In this document: positions 25,030-37,223 of the stretch, piece after piece
How the letters are laid out: the number at the start of each line of letters is the position of its first letter
Numbering within the stretch: position 1 is the stretch's first letter
Source of the DNA: Bacilli bacterium
GTDB taxonomy: Bacteria; Bacillota_I; Bacilli_A; RF39; UBA660
Direction of reading: 5' to 3'
NCBI GenBank assembly: GCA_017553685.1
Contig: JAFZKH010000003.1
Coordinates: forward strand, 62,001 to 126,000
DNA length: 64,000 bases
Made by a program: the position numbers and the translations under genes
Notes under the pieces: generated by a model
Databases searched by the model: none
Told to the model about the DNA's origin: nothing
Seen by the model: the letters and a program-made list of their open reading frames with translations, nothing else

Positions 25030-25755
25030 ATGCTATTATTTCCAATTTTATTTAAATATAATATGCATGATAGTAGAGTAGGATGGTTAAGACAATATTG
25101 CAAACTATCAAAAAGAGAGAGAGGAAAATTCTTAAACGATTTAGAGCAAGCACTAGATTTGAACATTAAATTGAGAGATGCTTATAAAGAAATTGGTCCA
25201 TTTGATACGGGTTTACTAAAAAATGAAGGTGTTAGTTATTATAGTATATCAACAGATATAGAAAACATTAAAAGAATCATAAGAATAATTAATGAACAGG
25301 TTGATACCTATGCTGAGTTAAGTACAGGAGATGAAGAAGTTACTAAAATTGTACATGATGATATTCAACGTAATCCGATGATATATGTTGGAAGAAAAAT
25401 AAAGACTCCTGATGGTAAAATAAAACCCGTAAAAATGGTAAGATTCTTTGAAATAGGAAAGAATGGAGAAAAAAGCAATGTTTCAGGATGGTATCACTTT
25501 GATACTATAGTAATGACTGTTGAACAAGCTTATTCCAAATTAAATGAAGCACTATTAGTCAATAGACATTATGCACCTGAAAGTGAAAAAGAGGCTGTAA
25601 CGGAAAAATATGAAAGACTATTAAGCGATGTTGGTAATATATCAGACCAATATGAAAAAATAGGCTTTGAATATGATAAAAATGGTGAATTATCTATTAA
25701 GGGTGCTCGTGAAAATGATATAGGTATTAAGCTCAACAAAACAGGTAAAAAATAA
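25030..25755 (+). CDS. Hypothetical protein (241 aa)
   Basis: This soluble, largely helical protein has N-terminal segments VGWLRQYCKLSKRERGKFLND and a central NPMIYVGRKIKTPDGKIKPV beta-like stretch. I do not recognise it. Codon use differs a little from its neighbours (several CCG, CCC, CGT and ACG codons), so it may be acquired. It is a single-gene unit with an AAGGGG RBS and its own terminator, just upstream of uvrB. Confidence 0.6.
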   Translation: MLLFPILFKYNMHDSRVGWLRQYCKLSKRERGKFLNDLEQALDLNIKLRDAYKEIGPFDTGLLKNEGVSYYSISTDIENIKRIIRIINEQVDTYAELSTGDEEVTKIVHDDIQRNPMIYVGRKIKTPDGKIKPVKMVRFFEIGKNGEKSNVSGWYHFDTIVMTVEQAYSKLNEALLVNRHYAPESEKEAVTEKYERLLSDVGNISDQYEKIGFEYDKNGELSIKGARENDIGIKLNKTGKK

Positions 25756-25820: not shown

Positions 25821-27776
25821 ATGGATAAATTTAAATTAGTTTCAAAGTATAAACCATCTGGTGACCAACCAGAGGCAATAGATGCTTTAGTAGAGGGAAT
25901 AAATACTGGTAAAAAGAGTCAAGTATTACTTGGTGCTACTGGTACAGGTAAAACATTTACTATTGCAAACGTAATAGATAGGGTAAATAAGCCTACTTTA
26001 GTTCTTGCCCATAATAAGACACTAGCAGGTCAATTATACTCTGAATTAAAGGAATTATTCCCTGAAAATAGGGTAGAATACTTTGTTTCTTATTATGATT
26101 ATTATCAACCTGAAGCTTATGTACCATCTAGTGATACTTATATTGAAAAAGATGCCTCAATTAATGATGAAATAGATGAATTAAGACATAGTGCTACATC
26201 AGCATTAGTATCTAGAAATGATGTAATTGTAGTAGCATCAGTATCTTGTATATATTCTTTAGGAGAAAAAGAAGAATATGAACATCAAACTTTAACTCTT
26301 CATACAGGAGATAAAATTGAAAGAGATGATATTCTAAAGAAATTAGTAGATATGCTTTATGAAAGAAATAATTTAGAACTTACCAGAGGTACATTTAGAA
26401 CTAAAGGGGATACTATAGAAATAATGCCTTCTTATACAAGTTCTTATGCTTATAGAGTAGAACTATTTGGAGATGAAATAGAAAATATTATTCAGTTTGA
26501 TACTGTAACTGGGGCTGTTATAGAAAGAAAGATAACTATTACTTTATTTGCAGCTTCTCACTTTGTTACTTCTAATGAAAAGATAAAACTAGCTTGTGCT
26601 AATATTAGAAAAGAATTAGAAGATAGACTTAAATACTTTAAAGAGAATAATAAGTATTTAGAATATGAAAGACTTAGTCAAAGAACTAATTATGATCTAG
26701 AATTAATGGAAGAAACTGGATTCTGCAAAGGAATAGAGAATTATTCAAGACATTTAGCATTTAGAAAACCGGGTGAAACACCTTGTACTCTTATAGATTT
26801 CTTTCCTAAAGATTTTCTTTTAGTAGTAGATGAATCCCATGTAACACTTCCACAAGTTCGTGCTATGTTTAATGGAGATAGAGCAAGAAAACAAATACTT
26901 GTAGATTATGGTTTTAGATTACCTAGTGCATTAGATAATAGACCTCTTACATTTGATGAGTTTAATTCTAAATTAAATGATGTAATATATGTATCTGCTA
27001 CTCCTGGAGATTATGAAATAGAAGTATCTAACAATAGAGTAGTAGAACAAATAATTAGACCTACTGGATTACTTGATCCAACTATTGATGTAAGGCCATC
27101 TGAGAATCAAATTGAAGACCTAATTAATGAAATAGATGAAAGAATTAATAAGAATGAAAGAGTACTTATTACTACTTTAACTATTCGTATGAGTGAAGAA
27201 TTAACTGATTACTTAAAAGAAAGAGGTATAAAAGTAGCTTATCTTCATAATGAGATAAAAACTCTAGAAAGAATAGAAATAGTTAGAGACTTAAGACTAG
27301 GTAAATATGATGTAATAGTAGGAGTTAACCTTCTTAGAGAAGGTATAGATATACCAGAAGTATCTTTAATAGCAATATTAGATGCTGATAAACAAGGATT
27401 CTTAAGAAGTACTAGATCTCTTATTCAAACTATTGGTAGAGCAGCTAGAAATGCTAATGGTAAAGTAATAATGTATGCTGATATGATATCTGATTCTATG
27501 AAAGAAGCTATAGATGAAACTAATAGAAGAAGATCTATTCAAGAAGCATATAACGAAAAGAATGGTATTACTCCAACTACTATAGTTAAACCTATAGCAG
27601 ATATAATTCGTAATAAGGCTAAAGATAGTAGCGAAAAGGACTTTAAGTATTCTAAGACAGAAAAAGAGAAACTAATGAAAGAAATAGAAAAAGAGATGCT
27701 TGAAGCTGCTAAAGAATTAGATTTTGAAAGAGCTACAGAGCTTCGTGATATATTATTTGAAATGAAGGCTGAATAA
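25821..27776 (+). CDS. uvrB: Excinuclease ABC subunit B
   Basis: UvrB verifies DNA damage and loads UvrC in nucleotide excision repair. The 651-residue protein has the full family layout: Walker [12 protein letters not shown], the damage-probing hairpin [20 protein letters not shown], motif [15 protein letters not shown], motif [10 protein letters not shown] and the C-terminal UVR motif [12 protein letters not shown]. The start follows GGAGG. uvrA, its usual direct neighbour, is 3.8 kb downstream because five other genes lie between. Confidence 0.98.
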
Positions 27777-27798
27777 AGGAGAGTATATACTCTCCTTT
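27775..27798 (+). terminator. 24-bp perfect palindrome after uvrB
   Basis: AAAGGAGAGTAT pairs perfectly with ATACTCTCCTTT. It begins inside the uvrB stop codon and lacks a long T-run, so it may be a weak terminator, a transcript-end stabiliser or a protein site. Confidence 0.6.
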
Positions 27799-27803
27799 AA
27801 TTA

Positions 27804-27812
27804 TGTTATAAT
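27804..27812 (+). promoter_or_regulatory. Extended -10 promoter
   Basis: TGTTATAAT lies 17 nt before the ATG of the tandem-HEPN gene, right after the palindrome. Confidence 0.6.
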
Positions 27813-27828
27813 TAGACTAGGTGATAAC

Positions 27829-29268
27829 ATGGTATCGATGGAAAAAGATAAAATGATTACATATTTATTTGATTATGCTTGTTTATCAAACTTAATGATA
27901 GATAATCCAGATAAATCAGTAAAAGAATTATTTGATAAATATGTTATAGAAAATGGCATTTGTTATTATAATACTGAATCTGAATATTATGATGTAATGA
28001 GACGAACATTTACCGCATACAATATATTTAGGTATTATTCAATAATAGAAGACTTTTTGTTAAATAGAGATGATTTTATAAGTAATAATGATTTAAATGG
28101 TCTTGAATCAAGTTTTACTATAATTGAGGCACCACATGATTTAATAAATAAAAAGTTAATTCAATATATTAGGAACGCATTTAATCATAATAGTGATGAC
28201 GTAGAAAGATTTAAAATGTCTGCTAATGGTAGAAATTTTGAAATTAACTTAAGAGATACAAGAACTCAAAAAGAAAAAGATAATGGTGTTTCACCTAAAC
28301 CAGTAAGAATAAAGTTTAATTTTGGTAGCTTATTGAAAACAATTGATAAAATGAGTGAAAAAAGACAAAATACTCTTTATTTAAGTTTTGATATCCCTGA
28401 AGATTTTGATTTTAATACTGATGATTTAGATAATGAATTAGATAAGATAAAATTTGTTCATTATTATTTTCCGAGAAAAATGGATAGCTCAGTTACTAAT
28501 AGATTTGATCAATTAAATGATACAAAAGATTTAGATGAGAAGGAATTATTTGAAAGAAGTGATGAAGTAAATGCTTATGCTTCACAAATTAATCCTCCTA
28601 CTGTATTTAATTTGGATAATGATCAAAAAAAATGTTTAAAAGATATGATTGAAAAGTTTAGAATTCGAATACAACCTACTAAAATAGAAAAATATAGTCA
28701 TGTATGTGGTTATATGTTTTATTTCTTATCAAAGGTTATACCAGTTCCCGGATTAAAAATAACAGATATAGAACAGCAAATATTCTTATGTGGTAATTAT
28801 TTATTAGATACCAATCTCACATATAAAGAAATATTAAATCGTTTAATTAAGGTTGTACGTAATGATCCCAAACCTGACTATTATGATGAAATAGATTGCA
28901 ATATTCATGATTCTTTGGTTAATAAAGGTGGTAGCTATCCATATAGATTCTTAGAAAACATGATAGATGGGTCTTTTACAAGGTTAATGCCTGCTATAAC
29001 TTTTGTTGATGCATTTGTAACTCATTATTATAATGAAAGTACTATAGAAATTGATGGACAAATATATGATAGGGAAAAAATTAGGAATTCTTTTGTTCAT
29101 CAAAGATGGTATATCGATAAAGACTATAATATTTGTATGTATGATGCAGATCCTAGAAATATAAATGATTATGATTTGGAATTTGTTGGTAAGATTAATA
29201 TTGGTAGTTTTACTCAATGGGCATATAATATTCTAAATAATAAAAATGTATTAAAAAGAACTCTTTAA
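27829..29268 (+). CDS. Protein with two HEPN-type RX4H motifs
   Basis: This 479-residue soluble protein is helical by composition. It has two copies of the HEPN ribonuclease signature, R followed by a polar residue, three more, then H: RNAFNH (115-120) after the helix LINKKLIQYI, and RNSFVH (419-424) after DGQIYDREKI. The middle (about 130-330) has a beta-rich part and a Lys/Asp-rich linker. HEPN motifs of this type cut RNA in many toxins and phage-defence proteins; whether this protein does so is inference. It has its own promoter, sits between uvrB and uvrA where other Bacillota have nothing, and uses CGA, CGT and CCG codons more than its neighbours, which hints at transfer. No antitoxin-like partner adjoins it. 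Confidence 0.6.
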   Translation: MVSMEKDKMITYLFDYACLSNLMIDNPDKSVKELFDKYVIENGICYYNTESEYYDVMRRTFTAYNIFRYYSIIEDFLLNRDDFISNNDLNGLESSFTIIEAPHDLINKKLIQYIRNAFNHNSDDVERFKMSANGRNFEINLRDTRTQKEKDNGVSPKPVRIKFNFGSLLKTIDKMSEKRQNTLYLSFDIPEDFDFNTDDLDNELDKIKFVHYYFPRKMDSSVTNRFDQLNDTKDLDEKELFERSDEVNAYASQINPPTVFNLDNDQKKCLKDMIEKFRIRIQPTKIEKYSHVCGYMFYFLSKVIPVPGLKITDIEQQIFLCGNYLLDTNLTYKEILNRLIKVVRNDPKPDYYDEIDCNIHDSLVNKGGSYPYRFLENMIDGSFTRLMPAITFVDAFVTHYYNESTIEIDGQIYDREKIRNSFVHQRWYIDKDYNICMYDADPRNINDYDLEFVGKINIGSFTQWAYNILNNKNVLKRTL

Positions 29269-29310: not shown

Positions 29311-30375
29311 ATGGACTTTTATAAGAATTTATTTAAAAACAGAAATACTTATAACGGAAGATTAAACATGGCCGTATTTTATATCAATATATTCTTAGTA
29401 TTGGTACATGTTTTTCTTTCGGTTTTTTATTTTTTAGCAGGTCATAAACTTATGATATTTTTTAATATAGGATCTATAGTATTTTATTTATTAGGATTCT
29501 TATATTGTATAAAACATAGAAATTTATTTTTACAATTTGCTTTTGTTGAAATATGGCTACATACATTATTTGCTATATGTTCATTTGGGTGGGGAGCATA
29601 TTTTCAAAACTGGATATTTGCTTTACTTGCAGCAGTATTCTTACCTACATTTAATCCAGAAAACTTTAAACAATCATATAAACAAACATATTTTTTAAGT
29701 GCAGTATTATTTATATCTTATTTTGGATTTGCATATTTAATTCATACTCATACTTTCTCATTTACTATGGAATTAAGTACTAATATGAGAACTATAATAT
29801 TTGTTTTAAATAATTTTATAGCATTTATATCTATTATTATGTTTGCAGTTACTTATACTAAAAATAAAGAATCTAAAGAAATAGAATTAGTTAAAAAAGC
29901 TAACTTTGATGAATTAACTGGAATATATAATAGACATGGTATAGATATTATAGAAGAAGCTCTTCTTAAAAGAAGTAAAAAGTATTCAATTGCTATATTA
30001 GATTTAGATTTCTTTAAACCTGTTAATGATACTTATGGTCATAAATCAGGAGATATAGTTTTAAGTAAGATTGGTCAAATATTGGCATCTTATACTAGTA
30101 AAAATATATCTGTTGGTAGATGGGGTGGAGAAGAATTCATAATAGTAGGTAATTCAGATATTAAGTATTCTGATTTTGTAAATACTTTAGAGGATATAAG
30201 AAAGACTGTGGAAAAAACAAAATATCAGATTAATAAAAAGAAAAAAATTAATATAACAGTATCTATAGGAAGTAAATATATAAAAGATGGTAAATCTATA
30301 GAAGAAGGGGTATCAAGAGCGGATATAAATTTATATAAAGCAAAACAAACAGGCAGAAATAAAGTTATATCGTAA
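29311..30375 (+). CDS. Membrane diguanylate cyclase (GGDEF)
   Basis: About six hydrophobic helices in residues 20-185 form an unrecognised membrane sensor. The C-terminal GGDEF domain (about 195-354) is complete: DELTGIYNRHG, DLDFFKPVNDTYGHKSGD with the metal-binding Asp, and GRWGGEEFIIVG as the active site. The five residues before GGEEF do not contain the RxxD inhibitory site, so product feedback may be absent. It makes c-di-GMP from GTP. No EAL or HD-GYP protein and no c-di-GMP riboswitch was recognised in this window. Two small membrane-protein genes follow. Confidence 0.9.
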   Translation: MDFYKNLFKNRNTYNGRLNMAVFYINIFLVLVHVFLSVFYFLAGHKLMIFFNIGSIVFYLLGFLYCIKHRNLFLQFAFVEIWLHTLFAICSFGWGAYFQNWIFALLAAVFLPTFNPENFKQSYKQTYFLSAVLFISYFGFAYLIHTHTFSFTMELSTNMRTIIFVLNNFIAFISIIMFAVTYTKNKESKEIELVKKANFDELTGIYNRHGIDIIEEALLKRSKKYSIAILDLDFFKPVNDTYGHKSGDIVLSKIGQILASYTSKNISVGRWGGEEFIIVGNSDIKYSDFVNTLEDIRKTVEKTKYQINKKKKINITVSIGSKYIKDGKSIEEGVSRADINLYKAKQTGRNKVIS

Positions 30376-31593: not shown

Positions 31594-31635
31594 TATTATA
31601 TTTTGGTATAATATCATATGTTTGGAAGTGATATT

Positions 31636-36305: not shown

Positions 36306-37223
36306 ATGAATAAAAAGGAATTTAGAACATTAGATGAACAAATAGATATCTTAAGAAATAAAGGATTAACTATTAATGATGAAGAAGCTGCTAAAGATGT
36401 TCTTTTAAGAGAAAATTATTTCTTTGTTAATGGATATAGAAATATTCTTTATACAAAAGATAGAAAATTTATTAAGGGAACTACTTTTGAAGAGTTATAT
36501 TCAGTTTTCTTATTTGATAGAACTTTTAGAAATATATTATTTAAGAATTTATTAATAATAGAAAATAATATTAAAAGTATTATTAGTTATCAATTAAGTA
36601 AGAAATATGGTTATAAAGAATCTGATTATTTAAAACCATCTAATTTTAATCAAAATTTTACTGATAGTAGAAGAGTTATAGATGTTATTAATAAAATGAA
36701 GAGACAAATTAGAGTAAATGGTGATAAGCATACAGCTACTTCTCACTATATTAGTAAGTATGGATATATTCCATTATGGATTTTAGTAAAAGTACTCTCA
36801 TTTGGGCTTATAAATGAGTTATATGGCATATTAAAAGAAGAAGATAGAAAAGAAATAGCAGATATTTATGGATTAGATCCTGAAACATTAAAAACATATC
36901 TATCTTTATTAGCAAATTATAGAAATTTATGTGCTCATGAAGATATAGTATATGAACATAGAACTCAGGTTAGTATTCCAGATACAATATATCATGAGAG
37001 ATTAGGTATAGAAAAATATGAAGGCGAATATGTAAAAGGAAAAAATGATTTATTCGCTGTTGTAATTATGTTTAAAACATTATTAACAAAAAGTAAATTC
37101 TCTGATTTTATGGATGAAATTAATAGGGCTATAAAAGTATTTGATAAGAATATAGGGATAATAGATAATGATAAATTACTAGATAGAATGGGATTCCCTA
37201 GTAATTATGAAGAAATATTATAG
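36306..37223 (+). CDS. Abi_2 family protein (AbiD/AbiF-like HEPN)
   Basis: The 305-residue protein has the Abi_2 layout: LLRENYFFVNGYRNILY near residues 33-50, FEELYSVFLFDRTFRNILF at 61-79, and the RX4H signature RNLCAH at 206-211 followed by EDIVYE. Members of this family cause abortive infection in lactococci and belong to the HEPN group of putative RNases. The gene sits 8 nt after whiA and 11 nt before htrA with normal RBSs, so it is read with housekeeping genes and has no room for a separate RNA gene in its flanks. The role as defence is family knowledge; activity here is inference. Confidence 0.85.
   Translation: MNKKEFRTLDEQIDILRNKGLTINDEEAAKDVLLRENYFFVNGYRNILYTKDRKFIKGTTFEELYSVFLFDRTFRNILFKNLLIIENNIKSIISYQLSKKYGYKESDYLKPSNFNQNFTDSRRVIDVINKMKRQIRVNGDKHTATSHYISKYGYIPLWILVKVLSFGLINELYGILKEEDRKEIADIYGLDPETLKTYLSLLANYRNLCAHEDIVYEHRTQVSIPDTIYHERLGIEKYEGEYVKGKNDLFAVVIMFKTLLTKSKFSDFMDEINRAIKVFDKNIGIIDNDKLLDRMGFPSNYEEIL

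Follow-up and report, generated by a model that had tools for sequence, protein, structure and literature searches.

The HEPN superfamily is recognised by an RX4-6H motif located at the end of helix-3 and followed by a loop and helix-4, and, in those members that have them, by an acidic residue in helix-2 and a polar residue after the arginine, and Csx1 (MJ1666) is listed among the proteins with the HEPN dyad (PMC3710099). Cas13 is thought to derive from the fusion of two defence-associated HEPN proteins, and Cas13an is a compact type VI CRISPR effector of 429-577 amino acids (PMC12165695). The same work reports twelve clusters of AlphaFold-DB in which the HEPN dimer is intramolecular, and two of these clusters are Cas13an. 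A further HEPN protein, AbiF, is toxic in both C. difficile and E. coli and possesses an RNA antitoxin (PMC12373285). In the present study we have analysed a gene from a stretch of 64 kb of bacterial DNA (hereafter the window), whose product carries two HEPN motifs in one chain. It probably represents an undescribed family of defence proteins that cut RNA and are self-contained.

The double-HEPN gene occupies positions 27829-29268 of the forward strand and encodes a protein of 479 amino acids, an assignment supported by 18 homologues with the same architecture. An earlier sequence-only reading of this DNA had given the positions of the ORF and of both motifs exactly, and had placed the gene between uvrB and uvrA. 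This placement is right, although the neighbour on the downstream side is a GGDEF gene (29311-30375), and three small genes also intervene before uvrA, which starts at 31618. On the upstream side uvrB (25821-27776) ends in a terminator-like hairpin (27774-27799, forward strand) that sets the double-HEPN gene apart, and behind it an extended -10 promoter, TGTTATAAT (27804-27812, forward strand), lies 16 nt ahead of the start codon. The promoter of its own that had been claimed for the gene is supported. Of the 18 homologues, 13 carry an extended -10 no more than 60 nt from the start, but 21 of the 43 genes of the window do as well. The gene is a single, monocistronic transcription unit, with intergenic gaps of only 52 nt on the 5' side, which include the uvrB terminator and the promoter, and about 43 nt on the 3' side. 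Its codon use, described before as slightly foreign, is not foreign (codon score z = -1.3, GC3 z = +1.3, GC z = -0.4), and we have dropped that claim. The adjoining genes are housekeeping or ordinary ones. An atypical codon use (z = -3.4) was observed elsewhere in the window, in an ORF of 241 amino acids on the 5' side of uvrB (25030-25755) that matches no family.

The first motif, RNAFNH (amino acids 115-120; 28171-28188, forward strand), contains R115 and H120, and the second, RNSFVHQRW (29083-29109, forward strand), which occurs a single time in the window, comprises RNSFVH (amino acids 419-424; 29083-29100) with R419, N420 and H424, followed by R426 and W427. The spacing between the two is about 300 amino acids. 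An alignment of 18 intact homologues of 425-604 amino acids, with identities to the window protein down to about 20%, leaves just eight invariant residues, namely D75, R115, H120, R419, N420, H424, R426 and D439, W427 being retained in 17 of the 18 sequences. This small set includes the arginine and the histidine of both motifs, which the sequence-only reading had proposed as the four catalytic positions, and by simple arithmetic the odds of a random draw placing all four among 8 of 479 columns are about 3e-8. Of the two further acidic residues, D75 (28051-28053, forward strand) belongs to the helix preceding motif 1, which is the position described for HEPN helix-2, and D439 (29143-29145, forward strand) lies in the strand after motif 2. 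In the first half the residue after the motif arginine may be N, D or Y, and in the second half N420 is invariant. Separately, one copy (L019, G048:C4) is split by an internal stop, and each of its halves retains a motif (IRDAFSH and LRNAFAHGRW). Conservation is a stronger argument for the motifs than chance statistics, as two RX4H motifs alone are unremarkable: they appear in 4.7% of shuffled sequences of the same composition, and two RNxxxH motifs in 0.02%. The first of these frequencies, together with the absence of any sequence-family or Foldseek match, could be taken to mean that the motifs are structural or coincidental and that the protein does not belong to the HEPN nucleases at all; the presence of both motifs among so few invariant residues at such low identity, each lying where it should with respect to the helices, makes this explanation hardly credible.

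The placement of the motifs was analysed in an AlphaFold2 model of the window protein built with six sequences (mean pLDDT 83.1, pTM 0.86, the latter indicating a confident overall arrangement). The model shows a HEPN-like domain 1 (amino acids 1-181; 27829-28371, forward strand) with helices 6-25, 31-41, 50-76, 107-119 and 165-178 and strands within 128-164, and a HEPN-like domain 2 (amino acids 307-479; 28747-29265, forward strand) with helices 307-326, 332-343, 382-400, 415-423 and 458-478 and strands within 405-457, of which those after the motif span 427-457 and include the strand 434-439. In both halves the motif closes a helix (107-119 and 415-423, respectively), and an extended stretch then leads into a last helix, so that the helical surroundings expected for the motifs are found in the model in a HEPN-like order. 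The acidic residue of helix-2 is represented in the first half by the invariant D75, at the end of helix 50-76; in the second half the helix 382-400 carries an acidic residue (D394) in most members, displaced by one turn in some. As modelled, half 1 fits the described HEPN features entirely, D75 included, and half 2 fits them with N420 as the polar residue after the arginine. When the profiles of the two halves were compared they aligned in register at RX4H with a score of 26.7, whereas the best of 200 column shuffles reached 19.6. With 15 sequences the signal was weaker and a reversed control equalled it (19.3 and 19.4, respectively); for this reason the profile comparison suggests, rather than demonstrates, a common descent of the two halves by internal duplication. 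Between the halves lies a middle region of mixed alpha/beta structure (amino acids 182-306; 28372-28746, forward strand), which is the least-occupied region of the alignment and somewhat more variable than the halves (mean column entropy 2.34 versus 2.06 and 2.26) and is a candidate sensor or linker. When PDB and BFVD were searched by Foldseek for folds like that of the full model, no match was returned. This negative result is weak, since Foldseek and profile searches likewise did not link Cas13an to Cas13 (PMC12165695). The AlphaFold2 model of the Abi_2 protein of the window (pLDDT 50) was too poor to serve as a positive control for Foldseek.

The sequence-only reading had found no family for this protein, and the searches agree with it. 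For the window protein, neither Pfam nor PADLOC nor the PDB sequences gave a match, and the whole family gives only chance-level matches in Pfam, PADLOC, PHROGs and NCBIfam. In function the protein might be likened to a compact Cas13 (Cas13an) without its guide. Both are single chains of similar size (425-604 versus 429-577 amino acids) in which a pair of HEPN motifs would be expected to build a single site, here two conserved motifs each with HEPN-like helices, and in neither is a large guide-binding lobe expected. Unlike Cas13an, however, no homologue has a CRISPR array beside it or an evident guide RNA, and the family is without sequence match to the PADLOC models of Cas13. Since the defining CRISPR feature is missing, no array being present in the 64 kb window or at any homologue locus, the double-HEPN family cannot be filed as Cas13. 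The correspondence in length and in motifs per chain with Cas13an (PMC12165695) would also be expected of a guide-RNA-dependent effector, Cas13an-like or preceding Cas13, whose array or ncRNA is encoded elsewhere. Besides the missing arrays and Cas13 matches, Cas1 is absent from 15 of the 17 carrier genomes and the promoter leader is very short, with no space for an adjacent ncRNA at the window locus, and we regard such an effector as quite improbable. The remaining clusters with an intramolecular HEPN dimer in AlphaFold-DB resemble the present family in having two HEPN domains per chain and no CRISPR reported (PMC12165695), and the family may be one of these uncharacterised clusters.

Other HEPN systems are also distinct. 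With Abi_2/AbiD/AbiF (PF07751) the family shares the RNxxxH motif, a solo HEPN protein and an association with defence, and hhalign pairs RNxxxH with RNxxxH, although at E values (0.53 and 0.047) that are not significant; the Abi proteins, however, have one HEPN domain per chain, and none of 15 family members matched PF07751. As to the RNA partner of these proteins, Rfam gave no match for the abiF RNA motif (RF03085) at the locus. Csx1/Csm6 and HEPN/MNT (HepT/MntA, with RX4-6H) belong to the same class of HEPN ribonucleases that is predicted here. The family differs from the former in lacking any detected CARF/Rossmann domain (Pfam, PADLOC) or type III CRISPR association at its loci, and from the latter in having two motifs in one chain and no MNT partner gene, the neighbours being uvrB and the GGDEF gene at this locus and no gene of any kind being common beside most homologues. 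By the features compared, the family is therefore not AbiD/F, HEPN/MNT or Csx1/Csm6 either. The window itself contains an Abi_2 (AbiD/F) HEPN gene with the motif RNLCAH after whiA (36306-37223). Since 16 of 17 related genomes have Abi_2, usually in a single copy, this supposed abortive-infection gene looks resident in these small genomes. In one genome (G410:C24:11404-11961, L097) a protein of 502 amino acids with a weak Abi_2 match and the motif RNSLAH possibly represents another HEPN family.

Homologues were found in other whole genomes of the same taxonomic family. Public metagenome-assembled genomes of Bacilli also contain them, sheep rumen and goat cecum being two of the sources. The sampled genomes of the taxonomic family contained 14 carriers among 386, one of which (L038 in G226) was later dropped as a false match to MurG, and the order sample contained 8 among 288. 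In the phylum-wide sample the sole further match was a marginal one of 18 bits; a marginal 18-bit match in G137 (L045) was not used. No homologue was detected in viral contigs or in phage or plasmid records. In a close relative with a UvrB 98% identical (G007) the site is empty, uvrB being followed straight by the GGDEF gene with no remnant, and in another (G010, UvrB 92% identical) a double-HEPN gene stands at the same place with an identity of only 61%. Between the window genome (G000) and G010 the double-HEPN gene shows dN 0.28 and dS 0.88 (dN/dS about 0.32) and uvrB dN 0.059 and dS 0.59, a roughly fivefold difference in dN; the gene is under purifying selection and yet evolves fast. The neighbouring GGDEF protein is also fast-evolving (69% identity to G010, versus 92% for UvrB and UvrA). 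In the gene tree the window protein and that of G010 join a protein from a different genus (G395) with full support, leaving the same-genus G001 outside the group, and the same-genus pairs G410/G248 and G313/G389 carry distant versions. One genome (G277) possesses two paralogues. These observations show that the double-HEPN gene has been gained, lost and moved among related bacteria. They also bear on the proposal that the protein is a cellular HEPN protein for RNA processing or RNA binding, with a role in housekeeping regulation and neither in defence nor as a toxin. The core-gene neighbours at the window, the occupation of the same locus in G010 and the core-like appearance of the resident Abi_2 HEPN gene speak for it; the gene is nevertheless missing from most relatives, including the one with the nearly identical UvrB, and its two paralogues in G277, its fast evolution and the defence neighbours in several genomes speak against it, so that we judge this proposal rather unlikely.

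Such neighbours comprise GmrSD-HNH and PD-T7-3 at one locus (L007), a type III restriction-modification methyltransferase at another (L009), AIPR at a third (L034), and NERD, an AAA ATPase and MzaCDE within about 22 kb of the member in G313. AIPR genes number just two in the 17 carrier genomes, each 2-18 kb from a member; background counts for defence genes were limited to AIPR, GmrSD and Abi_2. As at the window locus, the majority of the homologues have ordinary genes around them. An AbiD neighbour at L008 was rejected as a signal of a defence island, because all but one of the 17 genomes have this Abi_2 gene and it stands after whiA in both loci examined (the window and L008). A common island was observed at L006, L030 (G410) and L035 (G248), made of a membrane-anchored protein of about 155 amino acids, a GNAT protein, a protein of 143 amino acids and a peptidase MA-like protein. 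The position of the double-HEPN gene within this island varies, or the version present is a highly divergent one. The view of the gene as a candidate new RNase toxin or defence gene, put forward in the sequence-only reading, finds support in the conservation of the motifs and their placement on helices; neither of the two results named beforehand as refuting it, unconserved motifs or motifs outside HEPN helices, was obtained. A defence gene in particular would fit, because its presence is sporadic, the site is empty in a close relative, the gene tree conflicts with the genus and several neighbours are defence genes.

It might instead be the toxin of a toxin-antitoxin pair with an unrecognised antitoxin, either a protein or an RNA as for the AbiF of C. 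difficile, serving in stress or in the maintenance of an element and not in defence against phages. Many HEPN proteins are toxins, AbiF with its RNA antitoxin (PMC12373285) offers a precedent, and both the patchy distribution and a phage integrase near one member (L006) agree with such a role. Against it, the short gaps on either side of the gene leave little space for an RNA antitoxin like that of AbiF or for a small antitoxin gene; Rfam gave no match and no adjacent ncRNA at the window locus, and no gene is common beside most members, no guide, antitoxin or partner consistently adjoining them, in agreement with the lack of a recognisable partner noticed from the sequence before. We thus consider a toxin-antitoxin pair possible but unlikely.

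The interpretation that we favour as a whole, with a confidence somewhat above even, is that of a stand-alone double-HEPN endoribonuclease with a composite active site, acting in abortive-infection defence. The protein is very probably an endoribonuclease, and a role in abortive infection is the most likely one. In this mechanism the enzyme would consist of two diverged HEPN domains in a single chain, R115/H120 and R419/H424 most likely meeting in one composite, metal-independent RNase site that would take the place of the homodimer formed by single-HEPN proteins. The enzyme would probably be held inactive in the healthy cell until a trigger, either derived from a phage or arising from stress, turns it on; the middle region may be what senses this trigger. 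Once activated it may cut host RNA, phage RNA or both, with the consequence that the infection would be stopped by abortive infection.

A more speculative proposal, which we put forward as an outside chance, is that the protein may be a CRISPR-free single-chain HEPN heterodimer from the kind of defence ribonuclease ancestral to Cas13, in the fused state before the gain of a guide RNA, with either a phage product as its direct trigger or a yet unrecognised small RNA. Given the derivation of Cas13 from fused defence-associated HEPN proteins (PMC12165695), a double-HEPN family that is small, stands alone and has no CRISPR would exemplify this fused state in nature, and would turn the trigger of a guide-free HEPN pair into a testable question. 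The host is a small gut or rumen bacterium, and this rapidly evolving and patchily distributed family would add an undescribed and probably defence-related one to host-associated Bacilli with very small genomes.
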